Shown here: piece after piece, positions 17,745 to 26,104 of the stretch | How positions within the stretch are numbered: position 1 is the stretch's first letter | Layout of the letters: the number at the start of each line of letters is the position of its first letter | Origin: Agrobacterium vaccinii | GTDB lineage: Bacteria; Pseudomonadota; Alphaproteobacteria; Rhizobiales; Rhizobiaceae | NCBI RefSeq assembly: GCF_021310995.1 | Contig: NZ_CP054150.1 | Span: 2,232,001 to 2,296,000, forward strand | Direction: 5' to 3' | DNA: 64,000 nt | Position numbers and translations under genes: made by a program | The notes under the pieces: generated by a model | The model's input: the letters and a program-made list of their open reading frames with translations, nothing else | Database searches by the model: none | What the model was told of the DNA's origin: nothing

Positions 17745-19169
17745 ATGGGGAACCTAAAGTTGGCATTTGACGAAATGATAAATGCGGACTCATCGCCGCG
17801 AAGCCCATACGAAAAGTATAATGATTGGTACAGCCGGCAGGACAGATCGCACCTGATCCAGAAATCCCGGGATGCCGAAAACATATTTCGAAAGACCGGC
17901 ATTACATTCGCCGTTTATGGGCATGCCGACAGCGCTGAAAAGCTCATCCCCTTCGACATCATTCCCCGCATCATCTCCGGTCGTGAATGGCGCAAGCTGG
18001 CGCAGGGTATCGAACAGCGCGTGCTGGCGCTCAACGCCTTTCTGGACGACATCTACCACAAGCAGGAAATCATTCGCGCCGGACGCATCCCCCGCGAACT
18101 GATCGAGCGCAATGAGGCGTTTCTGCCTGAAATGATCGGCTTCAAGCCGCCGGGCGGCGTTTACACGCACATTGTCGGCACGGATATCGTGCGCACTGGC
18201 GAAGACCAGTTCTACGTTCTGGAAGACAATGCCCGCACGCCTTCCGGTGTCAGCTACATGCTGGAAAACCGCGAAACCATGATGCAGATGTTCCCGGAAC
18301 TGTTCCACGAGAACAAAGTGCAGCGCGTCGAAGATTATCCCTATCAGCTGCGTCAATCGCTGGCATCGCTGGCACCTCCGGGCTGCAAGGGCAAGCCGCG
18401 CGTCGCCGTGCTGACCCCTGGCATTTTCAACTCGGCCTATTACGAGCACTCCTATCTGGCAGACATGATGGGTGTGGAGCTCGTCGAAGGATCTGACCTG
18501 CGCGTCATGGATGGCAAGGTCAAGATGCGCACGACTCGGGGCTATGAGGCCATCGACGTGCTCTACCGTCGTGTTGACGACGATTTCCTCGACCCCCTCA
18601 CCTTCCGCCCGGATTCGGCGCTGGGTGTTCCTGGCATCATGGATGTGTACCGTGCAGGCAACATCACCATCGCCAATGCACCGGGCACGGGAATTTCAGA
18701 CGATAAGGCCATTTATTCCTATATGCCTGAGATCGTCGAGTTCTATACGGGCCGCAAACCCCTGCTGGAAAACGTGCCGACATGGCGCTGCTCCGAGCCG
18801 GACAGCCTGAAATACGTTCTCGACAATCTGGCCGATCTGGTCGTCAAGGAAGTTCACGGCTCGGGCGGCTATGGCATGCTCGTCGGCCCAACGGCGTCCA
18901 AGAGAGAACGCGCCCTGTTTGCCGACAAACTGCGTGCGCGCCCCTCGAACTACATCGCACAGCCCACACTTTCGCTTTCCACAGTGCCTATCATGGTGAA
19001 AAACGGCATCGCGCCACGCCACGTCGATCTTCGTCCCTATGTTCTCGTCTCGGACAAGGTGAAAATCATACCTGGCGGGCTGACACGCGTTGCCCTCAAG
19101 CAGGGATCACTGGTCGTGAATTCCAGCCAGGGCGGCGGCACCAAAGATACGTGGGTACTGGAGGACTAA
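17745..19169 (+). CDS. Circularly permuted ATP-grasp protein (DUF404/DUF407)
   Basis: The 474-residue protein belongs to the circularly permuted ATP-grasp type 2 family. Recognisable segments are AFDEM at the start, EAFLPEMIGFKPPGGVYTHIVGTD, FYVLEDNARTPSGVSYMLENR, DVLYRRVDDDFLDPL, KEVHGSGGYGMLVGP (the ATP-grasp lysine/glycine region) and RHVDLRPYVL near the C terminus (quoted in part). ATP-grasp enzymes join carboxylates to amines through acyl phosphates. With the alpha-E and transglutaminase-like genes that follow it forms a widespread three-gene unit that comparative genomics predicts to make or modify peptides. The reaction is not established. The gap to the next gene is 3 bp. Confidence 0.88.
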   Translation: MGNLKLAFDEMINADSSPRSPYEKYNDWYSRQDRSHLIQKSRDAENIFRKTGITFAVYGHADSAEKLIPFDIIPRIISGREWRKLAQGIEQRVLALNAFLDDIYHKQEIIRAGRIPRELIERNEAFLPEMIGFKPPGGVYTHIVGTDIVRTGEDQFYVLEDNARTPSGVSYMLENRETMMQMFPELFHENKVQRVEDYPYQLRQSLASLAPPGCKGKPRVAVLTPGIFNSAYYEHSYLADMMGVELVEGSDLRVMDGKVKMRTTRGYEAIDVLYRRVDDDFLDPLTFRPDSALGVPGIMDVYRAGNITIANAPGTGISDDKAIYSYMPEIVEFYTGRKPLLENVPTWRCSEPDSLKYVLDNLADLVVKEVHGSGGYGMLVGPTASKRERALFADKLRARPSNYIAQPTLSLSTVPIMVKNGIAPRHVDLRPYVLVSDKVKIIPGGLTRVALKQGSLVVNSSQGGGTKDTWVLED

Positions 19170-19172
19170 GCC

Positions 19173-20114
19173 ATGCTGGGAAGAACGGCGAACGGACTCT
19201 ACTGGATGTTCCGCTATATCGAGCGCGCGGAAAACATTGCCCGACTGGTGGATGCAGGCATGCGCGTGTCGCTGACCCGCAGCGGCAGTGCCGACGAAGA
19301 CTGGGACGGCGTGCTGCAAAGTGCTGGCGCACGCGAGGAATTTCTCCAGACCCATGAAAAGGTGACCTCGGTCGATGCCATCGATTACATGCTGCGCGAC
19401 AAGGCCAACCCCTCCAGCGTCATGTCCTGCATCGAATTCGGCCGCAACAATGCACGCATGGTGCGCACCGCACTGACACGTGAAACATGGGAAGCGACCA
19501 ACGAATTCTGGATTGAACTCAAGAATCTTCTTGGTCGCAAAGTAAAAGCCGCGGAATTACCTCAAGTCATCGATGTTATTAAACATCGGGCAGGACTTGT
19601 GCGCGGCGCCTTCCACGGCTCGATGCTGCGCAACGATCTCTACAACTTCTCGCGCATCGGCACCTTCATCGAACGCGCCGACAACACAGCGCGAATTCTC
19701 GATGTGAAATACTATGTCCTGCTGCCCGCTGCGGCCCAAGTCGGATCATCGCTGGACAATGCCCAATGGGAGTCGATCCTGCGCTCCGTTTCGGCCCACC
19801 GCTCCTATGGTTGGGTCTATGACGCAGAGTATAAACCGGCCAATATTGCAGACTTTCTGATTTTAAACGGAAGGATGCCAAGATCACTGGCCTACTGTTA
19901 CGAAAAGATCGTCAGTAACCTTGGCCATCTCGCCGAAGACTACAGCGAGAAACATAAAGCCCACGATACCGCAGCAGCTATTCTGGCGACCTTGCAGAAA
20001 ACGACGATAAATAGGGTGATGGATCAGGGATTGCACGAGTTTCTCGAGCTGTTCGTCAACAAGAACGCCCAACTGGGGCAGGAAATCACGGATGGCTACC
20101 GCTTCTATCAGTAA
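19173..20114 (+). CDS. Alpha-E domain protein (DUF403)
   Basis: The 313-residue protein is an all-alpha 'alpha-E' family member, with the typical start MLGRTANGLYWMFRYIERAEN and the pairs FIERADNTARILDVKYY and PRSLAYCYEKIVSNL (quoted in part). The alpha-E domain is rich in conserved Glu/Arg and is found almost only beside circularly permuted ATP-grasp and transglutaminase-like genes. It is predicted to be a partner of the ligase. It follows the ATP-grasp gene by 3 bp and precedes the transglutaminase-like gene by 24 bp, so the three are one operon. Confidence 0.9.
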   Translation: MLGRTANGLYWMFRYIERAENIARLVDAGMRVSLTRSGSADEDWDGVLQSAGAREEFLQTHEKVTSVDAIDYMLRDKANPSSVMSCIEFGRNNARMVRTALTRETWEATNEFWIELKNLLGRKVKAAELPQVIDVIKHRAGLVRGAFHGSMLRNDLYNFSRIGTFIERADNTARILDVKYYVLLPAAAQVGSSLDNAQWESILRSVSAHRSYGWVYDAEYKPANIADFLILNGRMPRSLAYCYEKIVSNLGHLAEDYSEKHKAHDTAAAILATLQKTTINRVMDQGLHEFLELFVNKNAQLGQEITDGYRFYQ

Positions 20115-20138
20115 GCGGACGTGAGACGGGGATACGAC

Positions 20139-20960
20139 ATGCGCCTGAAGATCAATCACACGACCGAATATCTCTATGACGAGCCGGTCCCCTATTCCCT
20201 GCAACGCCTGCGGTTGACGCCTGCAAGCGGGCCGACGCAGACCGTGAAGGAATGGGAAGTCACCGTCGATGGCGCAACGCTGGAAGTGCGCTACGACGAC
20301 CACTTCGGCAATCGCGTCGAACTGGTGGAAACCGAGGGCCCGCGCAGCGCCGTCAAAGTCGTTGCCCGTGGCGAAGTCGAGACCATCGACAAGGCTGGCG
20401 TCTTCGGCGCCCATGTCGGCAACGCGCCGCTGTGGTTGTTCATGCGCGAGACGCCGCTGACCAAGCCCGGCAAGCTCATCCGTGAACTCGTTCGCCAGTC
20501 TACCGGCGACACGCCGTTGGAGAGACTGCACGAGTTGATGGCACTGGTTCATCTCGAGGTCGAATACGAAACCGGTTCGACAGGCACGGAAACGACGGCG
20601 GAGCAGGCTTTGGAAGCGGGCAAAGGCGTCTGTCAGGACCACACCCACATCTTCATTTCCGCCGCCCGCCATATGGGCATGCCCGCCCGTTACGTCTCCG
20701 GCTATCTGATGATGGAAGACGTCGCAGAACAGATCGCCACCCACGCCTGGGCCGAAGCCCACGTTCCCGGTCTCGGCTGGGTGGGGTTCGATGCCGCCAA
20801 CAAGCTCTGCCCTGACGAGCGTTACGTCCGCATCGCCAGCGGTCTCTCCTATCGCGACTGCGCGCCGGTTTCCGGCATGCGCGTTGGCCTTTCCGATGAA
20901 AGCCTGACGGTATCAGTCACCGTCCAACACGCCCAAAGCCAAAGTCAGTCACAAAGCTGA
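20139..20960 (+). CDS. Transglutaminase-like cysteine peptidase family protein
   Basis: The 273-residue protein has the N-terminal beta domain of bacterial transglutaminase-like proteins (INHTTEYLYDEPV) and the catalytic triad: Cys in GKGVCQDHTHIF, His in HAWAEAHVPGLGW and Asp in GFDAANK. Members usually act as peptidases or amidases on peptide bonds rather than as cross-linkers. I chose the ATG at 20139; a GTG 18 bases upstream is possible. It ends with a short Gln/Ser-rich tail. It is the third gene of the ATP-grasp/alpha-E unit and is followed by a strong terminator. Confidence 0.88.
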   Translation: MRLKINHTTEYLYDEPVPYSLQRLRLTPASGPTQTVKEWEVTVDGATLEVRYDDHFGNRVELVETEGPRSAVKVVARGEVETIDKAGVFGAHVGNAPLWLFMRETPLTKPGKLIRELVRQSTGDTPLERLHELMALVHLEVEYETGSTGTETTAEQALEAGKGVCQDHTHIFISAARHMGMPARYVSGYLMMEDVAEQIATHAWAEAHVPGLGWVGFDAANKLCPDERYVRIASGLSYRDCAPVSGMRVGLSDESLTVSVTVQHAQSQSQSQS

Positions 20961-20986: not shown

Positions 20987-21022
20987 CCGGCTCGCGATCC
21001 CGTGATCGCGAGCCGGTTTTTT
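20987..21022 (+). terminator. Rho-independent terminator of the ATP-grasp operon
   Basis: A perfect 13-bp stem, CCGGCTCGCGATC ... GATCGCGAGCCGG, with a 3-4 base loop is followed by TTTTTTAT. It lies 27 bp past the transglutaminase-like gene. It separates the three-gene operon from the repeat-protein gene. Confidence 0.92.
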
Positions 21023-21794: not shown

Positions 21795-24700
21795 ATGACT
21801 TCGATTATTTCTTCCCTTTCTGTCAAACAGATTGCCAATCTTTCAACCACCACTATGGCCAGCCTGAAAACCTCTGACGTTGCTGCCCTGAGCGCAACCC
21901 AGACTGCTGCGCTATCTTCCAAGCAGATTGCAGCACTAGACGCTGGCACGATATCCTCATTCAAGACAGACGCGATCGCTGCCATCTCGGCAAAGGCCAT
22001 CGTCGGTTTGACCGTTGATCAGCTTCAGGCGGTCGCCACGAACCAAGTGTCGGTTCTGTCCGCAAGCCAGATCGTTGCAATGTATTCCAGCCAGTTGGCA
22101 GCCCTCACGACCGGTGGCATCGAAGCATTGACCTCGACACAGGTTGGTTCTCTGACAGCCGCTCAGCTTGGAACACTCGACGCTGGCGAACTCAACTCCT
22201 TCACGACGAATGAAATTGCTGCTCTTAACGTCAAGTCCCTTGCTGGCCTGACAACGGATGCGATCTCTGGTCTTACCACCAACAAGGTGGCAGTCCTCAG
22301 CACGCCTCAGGTTGCAGCACTGACAGACAAGCAACTGGCATCGATCTCTTCCGCACAGCTTGCTGCTTTCGGAACGGGTCAGATCGCTGCACTGACTGCA
22401 AAGCAGATCGTTTCCATTTCGACCGACGCCATCGTCGGACTGACAAGCAATCAGACAGCCGTGCTCAGCGCAACTCAGCTGGCAGCTATCACAACCGCAC
22501 AGTTGGAAGCCTTTACCACAGCCAACATCGCAGCATTGACCTCGACACAGGTCGGCTCCCTGACAGCCGGTCAGCTCGGAACACTCGACGCTGGAGAACT
22601 CAACTCCTTCACGACGGATGAAATTGCGGCCCTCAGCGTCAAGTCGCTTGCCGGTGTAACAACGGACACGATGGCTGCTCTTGCAACCAACAAGATCGCT
22701 GCTCTCACCAACCCTCAGATCGCAACACTGACAGATAAGCAACTGGCATCGATCTCATCCGCTCAGCTTGCTGCTTTCGGAACGAGCCAGGTTGCTGCAC
22801 TGACTGCAAAGCAGATCGTTTCCATTTCGACCGACGCCATCGTTGGACTGACAAGCAATCAAACAGCGGCACTCAGCGCAGCTCAGCTGGCAGCTATCAC
22901 AACCGCACAGTTGGAAGCCTTCACCACAGCCAACATCGCAGCATTGACCTCGACACAGGTTGGTTCTCTGACAGCCGCTCAAATCGGAACGCTCGACGGT
23001 GGCGAACTCAACTCCTTCACGACCGATGAAATTGCTGCCCTCAGCGTCAAGTCTCTTGCCGGTGTAACAACAGACACGATGGCCGCTCTTGCAACCGACA
23101 AGATCGCTGCTCTCACCAACCCTCAGATCGCAACACTGACAGACAAGCAACTGGCATCGATCTCCTCCGCACAGCTTGCTGCTTTCGGAACGGGTCAGAT
23201 CGCTGCACTGACTGCAAAGCAGATCGTTTCCGTGTCGACCGACGCCATCGTCGGACTGACAAGCAATCAGACAGCAGCGCTCAGCGCAGCTCAGCTGGCA
23301 GCTATCACAACCGCACAGTTGGAAGCCTTCACCACAGCCAACATCGCAGCGCTGACCTCGACACAGGTCGGCTCCCTGACAGCCGGTCAGCTCGGAACAC
23401 TCGACGCTGGAGAACTCAACTCCTTCACGACCGATGAAATTGCTGCCCTTAACGTCAAGTCCCTTGTAGGCCTGACGACGGACACGATGGCTGCTATTGC
23501 AACCAACAAGATCGCCGCCCTCACCGCCCCTCAGGTCGCAACACTGACAACCAAACAAATCTCATCCATCACCTCGGGTCAGCTTGCTGCGCTTACAACA
23601 ACACAGATCACTGCACTGACAGACAAGCAGGTTGCAGCTCTTAATTCAGAGATGTTGTCAGGCCTGAAAAGCGAGCAGGTGCAAGCCCTGAGCAACAAGC
23701 AACTCGTTGCGCTCACAACTGCACAGTTGGCAGCCTTCACGACTGGTAGCATCGAAGCATTGACCTCGACACAGGTCGGTTCTCTGACTGCCGCTCAAAT
23801 CGGAACACTCGACGCTGGAGAACTCAACTCCTTCACGACGGATGAAATTGCTGCTCTTAACGTTAAGTCCCTCGCTGGCCTGACAACGGATGCGATCTCT
23901 GGTCTTACCACCAACAAGATTGCCGCCCTCAGCGCTCCTCAGGTTGCAACACTCACAGACAAGCAATTGGCATCGATCTCTTCTGCACAGCTTGCTGCTT
24001 TCGGAACGGGTCAGATCGCTGCACTGACTGCAAAGCAGATCGTTTCCGTGTCAACCGACGCCATCGTCGGACTGACAAGCAATCAGACAGCAGCGCTCAG
24101 CGCAGCTCAGCTGGCAGCGATCACAACCGCACAGTTTGAAGCTTTCACCACAGCCAACATCGCAGCGCTGACCTCGACACAGGTCGGCTCCCTGACAGCC
24201 GGTCAGCTTGGAACACTCGACGCTGGCGAACTCAACTCCTTCACGACCGATGAAATTGCTGCTCTTAACGTCAAGTCCCTTGTTGGCCTGACAACAGACA
24301 CGCTGGCTGCTCTTGCAACCAACAAGATCGTTGCTCTCACCGCCCCTCAGGTCGCAACACTGACAACCAACCAAGTTGCATCCATCACCTCGGGTCAGCT
24401 TGCTGCACTTACAACAGCGCAGATCACTGCACTGACAGACAAGCAGGTTGCAGCTCTTAATTCAGAGATGTTGTCAGGCCTGAAAAGCGACCAAGTGCAA
24501 GCCCTGAGCAACAAGCAACTCGTTGCGCTCACAACTGCACAGTTGGCAGCCTTCACGACTGGTAGCATCGAAGCATTGACCTCAACGCAGGTCGGTTCTC
24601 TGACAGCCGCTCAAATCGGAACACTCGACGCTGGCGAACTCAACTCCTTCACGACCGATGAAATTGCTGCTCTTAACGTCAAGTCCCTCGCTGGCCTGAC

Positions 24701-26042
24701 AACGGAAACACTGGCTGCTCTTGCAACCAACAAGATCGCCGCCCTCAGCGCTCCTCAGATCGCAACACTGACGGACAAGCAACTGGCATCGATCTCTTCC
24801 GCACAGCTTGCTGCTTTTGGAACGGGTCAGCTCGCTGCACTGACAGCAAAGCAGATCGTTTCCGTGTCGACCGACGCCATCGTCGGACTGACAAGCAATC
24901 AGACAGCAGCACTCAGCGCAACTCAGCTGGCGGCTATCACAACCGCACAGTTGGAAGCCTTCACCACAGCCAACATCGCAGCACTGACCTCGACACAGGT
25001 CGGCTCCCTGACTGCCGCTCAAATCGGAACACTCGACGCTGGAGAACTTAACTCCTTCACGACCGATGAAATTGCGGCCCTCAACGTCAAGTCGCTTGCT
25101 GGCCTGACAACGGAAACGCTGGCTGCTCTTGCAACCAACAAGATCGTTGCTCTCACCAACCCTCAGATTGCAACACTGACGGACAAGCAACTGGCATCGA
25201 TCTCTTCCGCTCAGCTTGCTGCTTTCGGAACGAGCCAGGTTGCTGCACTGACGGCAAAGCAGATTGTTTCCGTGTCAACCGATGCTATCGTCGGACTGAC
25301 AAGCAATCAGACAGCGGCGCTCAGCGCAACTCAGCTGGCGGCTATCACAACCGCACAGTTGGAAGCCTTCACTACAGCCAACATCGCAGCATTGACCTCG
25401 ACACAGGTCGGTTCTCTGACAGCGGCTCAAATCGGAACACTTGATGGTGGAGAACTCAACTCCTTCACGACGGATGAAATTGCGGCTCTTAACGTTAAAT
25501 CGCTTGCTGGCCTGACAACGGACACGATGGCTGCTCTTGCAACCAACAAGATCGTTGCTCTTACCAGCCCTCAGATCGCAACACTGACGGACAAGCAACT
25601 GGCATCGATCTCCTCCGCACAGCTTGCTGCTTTCGGAACGGGCCAGGTTGCTGCACTGACGGCAAAGCAGATCGTTTCACTGTCAACCGATGCTATCGTC
25701 GGGCTGACAACCACTCAGGCTGCTTCCATCAGCGCAACTCAGCTGGCGGCTCTGACAACCGCACAGCTGCAGGCCTTCACCACCGCCAACATCGCGGCGT
25801 TGACATCCACGCAGGTAGCAGTTCTGACATCTGCACAGGTCGCAACACTCGACGCTGGAGAACTCAACTCCTTCACGACCGATGAAATTGCGGCCCTCAA
25901 CGTCAAGTCGCTTGCTGGCCTGACGACTGAAGCAATCATGGGCATGGAGGACACTAGGATCGACGCAATGTCGGACACTCAAAAGCAGTCGCTCAACGAT
26001 GCACAGGTAGCAGCAATCATTGCCGCCTATGGCAACATCTAA
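21795..26042 (+). CDS. Giant octapeptide-repeat protein, 176 tandem octads
   Basis: The 1415-residue protein consists of seven N-terminal residues followed by exactly 176 eight-residue repeats with the pattern [LIF]-[TS]-x-x-Q-[ILV]-A-[ASG]. Thirteen diverged octads lead in, nine higher-order units of 17 octads (136 residues) follow, and ten octads close the protein up to the last residue. I found no Cys, His or Trp and only one Arg. There is no signal peptide, transmembrane segment, RTX motif or anchor, so location is unknown. I chose the ATG at 21795, with GGGGG nine bases upstream; a longer frame back to 21696 has no repeats. Proteins with similar LTxxQ octads in other proteobacteria carry uninformative names. 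The octad fold and role are not known to me. A strong terminator follows. Confidence 0.9.
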   Translation: MTSIISSLSVKQIANLSTTTMASLKTSDVAALSATQTAALSSKQIAALDAGTISSFKTDAIAAISAKAIVGLTVDQLQAVATNQVSVLSASQIVAMYSSQLAALTTGGIEALTSTQVGSLTAAQLGTLDAGELNSFTTNEIAALNVKSLAGLTTDAISGLTTNKVAVLSTPQVAALTDKQLASISSAQLAAFGTGQIAALTAKQIVSISTDAIVGLTSNQTAVLSATQLAAITTAQLEAFTTANIAALTSTQVGSLTAGQLGTLDAGELNSFTTDEIAALSVKSLAGVTTDTMAALATNKIAALTNPQIATLTDKQLASISSAQLAAFGTSQVAALTAKQIVSISTDAIVGLTSNQTAALSAAQLAAITTAQLEAFTTANIAALTSTQVGSLTAAQIGTLDGGELNSFTTDEIAALSVKSLAGVTTDTMAALATDKIAALTNPQIATLTDKQLASISSAQLAAFGTGQIAALTAKQIVSVSTDAIVGLTSNQTAALSAAQLAAITTAQLEAFTTANIAALTSTQVGSLTAGQLGTLDAGELNSFTTDEIAALNVKSLVGLTTDTMAAIATNKIAALTAPQVATLTTKQISSITSGQLAALTTTQITALTDKQVAALNSEMLSGLKSEQVQALSNKQLVALTTAQLAAFTTGSIEALTSTQVGSLTAAQIGTLDAGELNSFTTDEIAALNVKSLAGLTTDAISGLTTNKIAALSAPQVATLTDKQLASISSAQLAAFGTGQIAALTAKQIVSVSTDAIVGLTSNQTAALSAAQLAAITTAQFEAFTTANIAALTSTQVGSLTAGQLGTLDAGELNSFTTDEIAALNVKSLVGLTTDTLAALATNKIVALTAPQVATLTTNQVASITSGQLAALTTAQITALTDKQVAALNSEMLSGLKSDQVQALSNKQLVALTTAQLAAFTTGSIEALTSTQVGSLTAAQIGTLDAGELNSFTTDEIAALNVKSLAGLTTETLAALATNKIAALSAPQIATLTDKQLASISSAQLAAFGTGQLAALTAKQIVSVSTDAIVGLTSNQTAALSATQLAAITTAQLEAFTTANIAALTSTQVGSLTAAQIGTLDAGELNSFTTDEIAALNVKSLAGLTTETLAALATNKIVALTNPQIATLTDKQLASISSAQLAAFGTSQVAALTAKQIVSVSTDAIVGLTSNQTAALSATQLAAITTAQLEAFTTANIAALTSTQVGSLTAAQIGTLDGGELNSFTTDEIAALNVKSLAGLTTDTMAALATNKIVALTSPQIATLTDKQLASISSAQLAAFGTGQVAALTAKQIVSLSTDAIVGLTTTQAASISATQLAALTTAQLQAFTTANIAALTSTQVAVLTSAQVATLDAGELNSFTTDEIAALNVKSLAGLTTEAIMGMEDTRIDAMSDTQKQSLNDAQVAAIIAAYGNI
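22128..25799 (+). repeat. Nine tandem 408-bp repeats inside the octad-protein gene
   Basis: The DNA of the repeat gene is built from nine direct copies of exactly 408 bp (22128, 22536, 22944, 23352, 23760, 24168, 24576, 24984, 25392), and a tenth, partial copy begins at 25800. Each starts at the codons for LTSTQVGS. The second halves come in two types: type A (…TDKQLASISSAQLAAF…) and type B (…SGQLAALTTTQITALTDKQVAALNSEM…). The order is A-A-A-B-A-B-A-A-A. Copies are nearly identical in sequence, so the array should be prone to unequal recombination and to assembly error. Confidence 0.95.
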
Positions 26043-26069
26043 GACTGAATGATACCAAGCTCAAACACG

Positions 26070-26104
26070 AACGGCGCGACCTAGGTCGCGCCGTTTTCTT
26101 TTTG
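26070..26104 (+). terminator. Rho-independent terminator of the octad-protein gene
   Basis: The stem ACGGCGCGACC ... GGTCGCGCCGT, with a short CTAG-centred loop, is followed by TTTTCTTTTT. It lies about 28 bp after the stop codon. Confidence 0.92.

Follow-up and report, generated by a model that had tools for sequence, protein, structure and literature searches.

What a protein built almost wholly from one repeated octapeptide might do is the question raised by the P0001 gene of Agrobacterium vaccinii, which encodes 1415 residues and lies in a 64,000-nucleotide stretch of contig NZ_CP054150.1 (positions 2,232,001 to 2,296,000), referred to here as the window. The relatives of P0001 are usually encoded next to a sugar-attaching enzyme of their own, and this gene neighbourhood suggests that the proteins are sugar-coated rods. 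The repeat architecture, the predicted fold, the linkage to genes for GT41 glycosyltransferases, the existence of a separate group of these enzymes, and a periodicity in the order of the octapeptides (octads) were established in this analysis. L and G numbers denote the loci and genomes analysed.

Octad architecture of P0001

P0001 consists of 7 residues followed by exactly 176 gapless in-frame octads, as had been counted in an earlier sequence-only reading of this locus (7 residues, then 13 + 153 + 10 octads). The nine 17-octad units implicit in that count (153 = 9 x 17) were confirmed by super-repeat phasing, in which the octads fall into the layout 16 + 9x17 + 7, units 4 and 6 being of a second kind. 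The marker FTT[DN]EIAAL occurs in 10 copies at a spacing of exactly 136 residues, and Tandem Repeats Finder reported 9.3 copies of period 408 at positions 22118-25924.

The octad pattern scored 625, against a maximum of 236 in 2000 residue shuffles for which the best of 8 frames was taken each time, and the hydrophobic autocorrelation was 0.69 at lag 8, 0.65 at lag 16 and 0.64 at lag 24. Hydrophobic residues occupy positions 1 (L/I/F/V/M in 176/176 octads) and 6 (I/L/V/M/F in 166/176), as previously read, and the observation as a whole held; the strict form of the consensus, [LIF][TS]xxQ[ILV]Ax, was overstated, with only 41 of the 176 octads matching it, and so was the claim of Q/E/D/N at position 5 of nearly every octad (129/176). 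Mean pairwise identity was 0.79 at position 1 and 0.82 at position 5, compared with 0.34 at position 4. There is no Cys, His or Trp and a single Arg, again as read from the sequence, and of the 360 Ser/Thr residues 132 stand at position 2 and 105 at position 3 of the 176 octads.

Repeat family and predicted fold

P0001 matched the Pfam family PF20080, 'ALTTAQ repeat', with 603.7 bits (curated cut-off 26.4), and its two paralogues in the same genome were also above the cut-off (1157.7 and 292.6 bits). The PF20080 model describes a repeat of 38 positions only; it covers neither the association with GT41, nor a chain made of octads alone that opens with a conserved N-terminus, nor the order of 3.4 octads described below. 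Among sequences in the PDB there was one convincing match, the 120-residue solved chain 9zem, 'HeliScrew4', which scored 60.7 bits against P0001 alone and 99.8 bits (E 1.5e-27) against a profile of 34 sequences, over 108 residues with the same octads. HeliScrew4 is apparently a designed protein, judging from its name; it shares the octads of P0001 in 120 as opposed to 1415 residues, a likeness judged from sequence alignment alone, and it was not among the matches listed in the Foldseek and VIA-align searches.

AlphaFold models of both ends of P0001 (predicted local distance difference test, pLDDT, 95-96) are regular all-helical solenoids in which every octad forms one short helix, about 4-6 residues long, and the last octad was modelled inside an 11-residue terminal helix that forms a cap. 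Each octad is modelled as a short helix, as the sequence-only reading had envisaged, and the models, with short helices only and zero strands, agree with its view that P0001 is neither a coiled coil nor a beta-solenoid. Among solved structures of natural proteins, the best Foldseek matches were to the mesothelin ectodomain (E 1.8e-4, probability 1.00), which resembles the P0001 model in its short helices; the best matches in a viral fold library had E 4.5e-6 and a template modelling (TM) score of 0.23. The suggestion of a new type of solenoid did not survive: membership of PF20080 together with the same octads in 9zem places the repeat, and probably the fold, in a known family, so that the ALTTAQ repeat is already known and its fold type very probably is too.

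Other family assignments were rejected. Leucine-rich repeats do not fit models that lack beta strands, and the leucine-rich repeat matches in the PDB sequence searches look compositional, as do the LRR_EndoS scores of the paralogues, which have no stretch of their own. Matches of P0001 to Sigma70_r4_2 and bacteriocin_sig (both over their cut-offs), DUF7443 and others likewise lack a separate stretch and are taken to be driven by the repeat. A literature search on HeliScrew, ALTTAQ and PF20080 found nothing on a natural function of the repeat, and searches on octapeptide solenoids, glycosylated octapeptide adhesins, and GT41 with adhesins, or on Glf with flagella in Agrobacterium, found nothing on the ALTTAQ family. 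The GT41-linked ALTTAQ system and the 3.4-octad order appear to be undescribed in the literature searched.

Linkage of ALTTAQ genes to GT41 genes

In Agrobacterium, ALTTAQ matches were found in at least 27 of 37 genomes including that of P0001. PF20080 matches were found in 23/297 genomes of an even sample across the order and in 6/289 genomes, the P0001 genome included, at class level. The protein search scored 7989 candidates sharing most words; 120 of its 194 matches were listed, mostly from other phyla. The largest pure-octad relatives reach about 3500 residues.

Of 73 named loci, which represent the best 80 of 335 matching stretches found by one peptide pattern, 52 have a GT41 gene within 1 kb of the ALTTAQ gene, 53 have one within 8 kb, and 43 have the gene for Glf (UDP-galactopyranose mutase) within 8 kb. 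In 40 Agrobacterium loci, hand-picked among the matches listed, GT41 was present within 8 kb in 26 and Glf in 24, and GT41 lay within 1 kb in just five because a glf or GT2 gene often intervenes. At order level, 14 loci were chosen from the 23 positive genomes and L080 was added; L177 and L182, where the contig ends within the ALTTAQ gene on the side of the GT41, were set aside, as was L186, with 14 octads and a weak match. In 11 of the 12 testable loci, all but L173, GT41 is directly downstream on the same strand, with a gap between the open reading frames (ORFs; stop-to-stop bounds) of 4-166 bases or a slight overlap, compared with about 0.011 such neighbours expected by chance across the 12 genomes. 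The single GT41 gene in each of G386, G480, G495 and G499 is the ALTTAQ-linked one. Relatives with a linked GT41 belong to several alphaproteobacterial families.

The genome of P0001 contains three pure-octad ALTTAQ ORFs: P0001 itself, a 735-residue ORF beside the gene for a pyruvate kinase, and a giant of about 2390 residues. The last has fliF directly downstream and, upstream, cheA-cheR-cheB...cheD, a TPR-GT41 gene and glf, and the corresponding giant sits between glf and fliF in 14/14 fetched loci (L053-L066). One Agrobacterium type (L067-L078) ends in a non-octad tail, e.g. ...VAATILSYLDV.

The linked enzymes and sugar genes

The GT41 enzyme encoded beside the giant paralogue matched PF13844 (GT41, OGT-type) in two stretches with 245.1 bits (cut-off 25), and TPR families matched it below their cut-offs; its closest solved chains are XcOGT, human OGT and SPINDLY. 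An FNxxxK-like motif, which may mark the catalytic lysine region of GT41, was found in 105/115 GT41 sequences. A tree was built from 51 of these 115, after removal of duplicates, with 22 Rhizobiaceae sequences drawn at random and three of the ten flagellin-linked sequences. In this tree, 40 of the 41 ALTTAQ-linked sequences lie on one side of a branch with support 88/73, and a core of 38 has support 100/99, separate from both the three flagellin-linked sequences and seven further GT41s in the genomes sampled. The ALTTAQ-linked enzymes are a group apart from the flagellin-linked GT41s of the same genomes. The 41st sequence (L071) groups with the flagellin-linked enzymes; it adjoins flagellin genes, and its label came from distance alone.

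The sugar genes differ among clades. Glf is found near ALTTAQ and GT41 in Rhizobiaceae; UDP-glucose dehydrogenase family genes are present in L174, L178 and L181, the last of which also contains a UDP-glucuronate decarboxylase (417.7 bits to human UXS1, next other enzyme 147). Epimerase-type genes in L167, L174, L178 and L185 had no NCBIfam model above its cut-off. This linkage, together with the sugar genes, is as would be expected of a protein-glycosylation cassette.

The P0001 genome has a second TPR-GT41 gene, FlmG-like and beside four flagellin genes (L010, 1006-3063; C1:359005-361063), which falls outside the ALTTAQ-linked group in the tree. Several GT41 domains in a row, counted as separate PF13844 stretches, were seen in single frames of 2108-2562 codons in G501 (C1:4682113-4689281) and G590 (C4:162546-169160).

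Periodicity of 3.4 octads

The order of the octads was examined in the 112 proteins, out of 124 distinct ones, that have at least 75 in-frame octads. Octad identity peaked at lags 17, 34, 51, 10, 44, 27, 24, 54 and 7 in a set mostly from Rhizobiaceae and at lags 24, 48, 31, 38, 14, 55, 7 and 10 in distant Alphaproteobacteria. A cosine fit gave periods of 3.39 and 3.43-3.44 octads, respectively, corresponding to 27.1-27.5 residues, and a period of 3.35-3.50 was obtained for 107/112 proteins (100/105 mostly Rhizobiaceae, 7/7 distant). The observed fit exceeded all 100 octad-order shuffles, made for every third protein, in each version tried. For the order-level set of 14 proteins, from which four with fewer than 50 in-frame octads were left out, the period was 3.39-3.44 in 10/10, nine of them previously unused (L080 had been used before), compared with 17/220 shuffles that gave 3.3-3.55; for L173, L174 and L182, three of these ten, the best of 50 shuffles fitted at least as strongly. 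The period was found in just 4 of 14 homologues from other phyla.

In the mostly-Rhizobiaceae set the octad positions with the strongest periodic signal are 3, 4 and 5, and in P0001 it is position 4; these positions are taken here as the ones that would face outward. A length of 3.4 octads (27 residues) probably represents one turn of the solenoid, with 17 octads making five turns, 24 making seven and 31 making nine; P0001 would then be a rod of about 52 turns, or roughly 50 nm at an assumed 10 Å per turn. Alternatively, lags such as 7, 10, 17, 24 and 27 may stem from nested tandem duplication and not from a turn. One duplication history could yield several of them, since 17 = 7 + 10, and P0001 orthologues do differ by exactly one 136-residue unit (1279 vs 1415); the scarcity of the period in other phyla points the same way. 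This explanation seems somewhat unlikely, however, because units of 24 or 31 octads elsewhere are likewise near multiples of 3.4, because the fit rises from 0.59 to 0.69 (Rhizobiaceae) and from 0.69 to 0.82 (distant) when the duplication lags and their neighbours are removed, and because all nine new proteins gave 3.39-3.44, which few shuffles approached.

Flagellar neighbours and export genes

Flagellar neighbours are not confined to the giants next to fliF. Six Shinella loci have motB/motC/flagellin relatives in the vicinity of an ALTTAQ gene; in L184 the ALTTAQ gene adjoins those for flagellin, FliD and FliS, and in L166 genes of the FlhB/YscU and FliR families are 2.5 kb away from it. Flagellins were present in 8/8 genomes checked, and in 14/15 genomes of the order sample that had 20 or more PF20080 matches, compared with 233/297 overall; G386, a strong PF20080 positive, had zero flagellin matches, and 67/73 named loci had no flagellar gene within 8 kb (own-genome reference set). 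Two of the four flagellins beside the FlmG-like GT41 begin with MTSILTNTS, and ALTTAQ proteins begin with MTSI/V. The flagellar link of ALTTAQ genes is recurrent and not obligatory.

The Pfam matches of P0001 (E up to 1) did not include the flagellin families PF00669 and PF00700, nor did its Pfam matches include RTX PF00353 or the two-partner-secretion family PF05860. RTX or haemagglutinin-type domains occur on other PF20080 proteins among the matches listed, according to precomputed Pfam lists. A search for type I secretion genes covered L009-L011, L053-L172 and the window. A type I exporter and an HlyD protein were found in the L168 and L170 clusters, and matches elsewhere were mostly ATPase-sized, the longest being in L152 (565 residues, 29% identity). 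The L168 and L170 clusters each contain two GT41 genes, and their ABC exporter has a C39-like region; their pure-octad ALTTAQ genes consist of 24-octad units with identities of 0.91 and 0.85.

Proposed function and alternatives

We propose, as an evenly balanced reading of these comparisons, that the ALTTAQ protein is a glycosylated, probably exported, screw-like rod; from the gene content we infer glycosylation, the identity of the sugar, export and a surface role. The P0001 chain would fold into a solenoid in which each octad forms one short N-capped helix and a turn takes about 3.4 octads, and a cytoplasmic TPR-GT41 enzyme would O-glycosylate the Ser/Thr-rich helix caps at octad positions 2-3 with a sugar that may differ by clade. 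For P0001 itself, the modifying enzyme would be the GT41 encoded beside the paralogue of about 2390 residues, acting in trans. After glycosylation the rods would be exported, by a route that may vary among clades, and could serve as glycosylated surface or flagellum-associated rods; the structural or surface role suggested by the sequence-only reading fits the gene neighbourhoods of the relatives. In a more specific form, held only tentatively, an OGT-type GT41, nucleotide-sugar genes and an octad screw with its outward positions in 3.4-octad phase would arrange sugars or binding sites as ordered stripes on a rod linked to the surface or flagellum; the sugar would vary with the clade (galactofuranose or xylose) and the rod would remain constant.

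Several findings weigh against a glycosylated, exported rod. No GT41 or Glf gene was found within 8 kb of P0001, at its orthologous loci L081-L084 or at loci of the 735-residue type, and both GT41 genes of the P0001 genome lie away from the P0001 locus. L173 has an ALTTAQ gene and no GT41 in the whole genome, and at class level GT41 is in the cluster at only three (L167, L168, L170) of seven loci, drawn from five positive genomes other than that of P0001. Support for the branch holding all 40 linked GT41s is moderate, and the tree program warns of long branches. In addition, the Pfam scan detected no Sec signal or secretion domain in P0001. This last point would suit a cytoplasmic scaffold, in which P0001 stays inside the cell and is either the target of the GT41, which would then be a regulatory OGT, or its platform for modifying other proteins; GT41/OGT enzymes are cytoplasmic, the closest solved relatives here being XcOGT, human OGT and SPINDLY, and most loci have no adjacent exporter. 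Such a scaffold is improbable given the type I exporter genes in L168 and L170, the RTX/haemagglutinin-type domains on other PF20080 proteins, and the co-encoded nucleotide-sugar enzymes, which suggest bulk modification.

It is also conceivable, if unlikely, that the flagellar type III apparatus is the exit for the rods and that these, glycosylated in the way that FlmG modifies flagellins in Caulobacter, sheath, decorate or cap the flagellum. The giant directly upstream of fliF in the P0001 genome and in L053-L066, the flagellar neighbours in Shinella, L184 and L166, the flagellins in 8/8 genomes checked, the shared N-terminal start and the precedent of FlmG, a TPR glycosyltransferase described as acting on flagellins in the cytoplasm (PMC7591256), would all accord with this. 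The flagellin-free G386, the small enrichment of flagellin among strong positives, the 67 loci without a flagellar gene nearby, the type I exporter in L168 and L170, the different group of the flagellin-linked GT41 and the lack of a flagellin match in P0001 do not. A selfish or neutral expansion of a functionless repeat, for which tandem arrays of the 408-bp unit and their change in copy number might speak, is scarcely credible, since the ratio of nonsynonymous to synonymous substitution rates (dN/dS) is well below 1 among units and among orthologues, the locus is retained in four other Agrobacterium loci, and octad positions 1 and 5 are conserved relative to position 4.

Comparison with known systems

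FlmG of Caulobacter crescentus is described as combining a substrate-binding TPR domain with a glycosyltransferase domain and as modifying flagellin in the cytoplasm before export (PMC7591256). The ALTTAQ-linked GT41 enzymes share the TPR and glycosyltransferase combination; the substrate of FlmG is flagellin. The adhesin HMW1 is reported to be a large exoprotein that has a cytoplasmic glycosyltransferase of its own, the GT41-related HMW1C, and to be secreted by the two-partner route and glycosylated on Asn (PMC3012730, PMC3983070). Unlike HMW1, P0001 is a predicted helical solenoid without a two-partner secretion domain, and among PDB chains the linked enzymes most resemble XcOGT and OGT.

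If glycosylation of the ALTTAQ rods is borne out, they would represent a natural substrate for a group of bacterial OGT-like enzymes, and an anonymous Pfam repeat would become a testable system of one enzyme, a very simple repeat substrate and clade-specific sugar genes. The octad and its 3.4-octad order would provide a highly regular scaffold for studying substrate reading by TPR-GT41 enzymes. The repeated occurrence of flagellar genes nearby raises the possibility of an unrecognised flagellum-linked protein in rhizobia and agrobacteria.

The P0001 gene and its surroundings

Between 408-bp units of the P0001 gene, dN/dS was 0.07-0.36 (ten pairs), the differences being mostly synonymous, and across ten pairs of P0001 orthologues it was 0.12-0.29, with dS close to saturation. 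The reading frame is under purifying selection. Orthologues in L081-L084, four other Agrobacterium loci, retain their place beside the transglutaminase gene; their lengths are 1415, 1415, 1279 and 1279 residues, so that repeat number, which the sequence-only reading had proposed to compare among strains, differs by exactly one 136-residue unit.

The coordinates of the features in the window are given in Table 1. Terminator-like sites in the region numbered 12 compared with 6.1 expected, and promoter-like sites were no commoner than in shuffled sequence. The hairpins after the upstream genes and after the P0001 stop codon suggest that the P0001 gene forms a separate transcription unit.

Table 1. 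Positions of P0001, its segments and neighbouring features in the window
Feature	Position	Strand	Remarks
ALTTAQ octad protein P0001, 1415 residues	21795..26042	+	ORF and translation; ATG start; stop codon included; PF20080 603.7 bits
7-residue leader MTSIISS	21795..21815	+	Opens the N-terminal stretch conserved across the family (MTS-I/V)
16 lead octads	21816..22199	+	
Nine tandem 17-octad units	22200..25871	+	136 residues / 408 bp each
Final 7 octads, closing in 11-residue capping helix	25872..26039	+	Octad phasing and model
Terminator-like hairpin with T-rich tail	26069..26096	+	After the P0001 stop codon
Terminator-like hairpin	20987..21016	+	After the ATP-grasp / Alpha-E / transglutaminase genes
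ATP-grasp / Alpha-E / transglutaminase genes	17745..20960		Upstream of P0001
Hybrid histidine kinase, 1222 residues	10362..14030		PAS domains and receiver domain

Antisense ORFs are present within the P0001 gene. The ATP-grasp / Alpha-E / transglutaminase set was also found near an ALTTAQ gene in Ciceribacter L137 and, in another family, within about 5 kb of the ALTTAQ gene in L178 (17079-20000).

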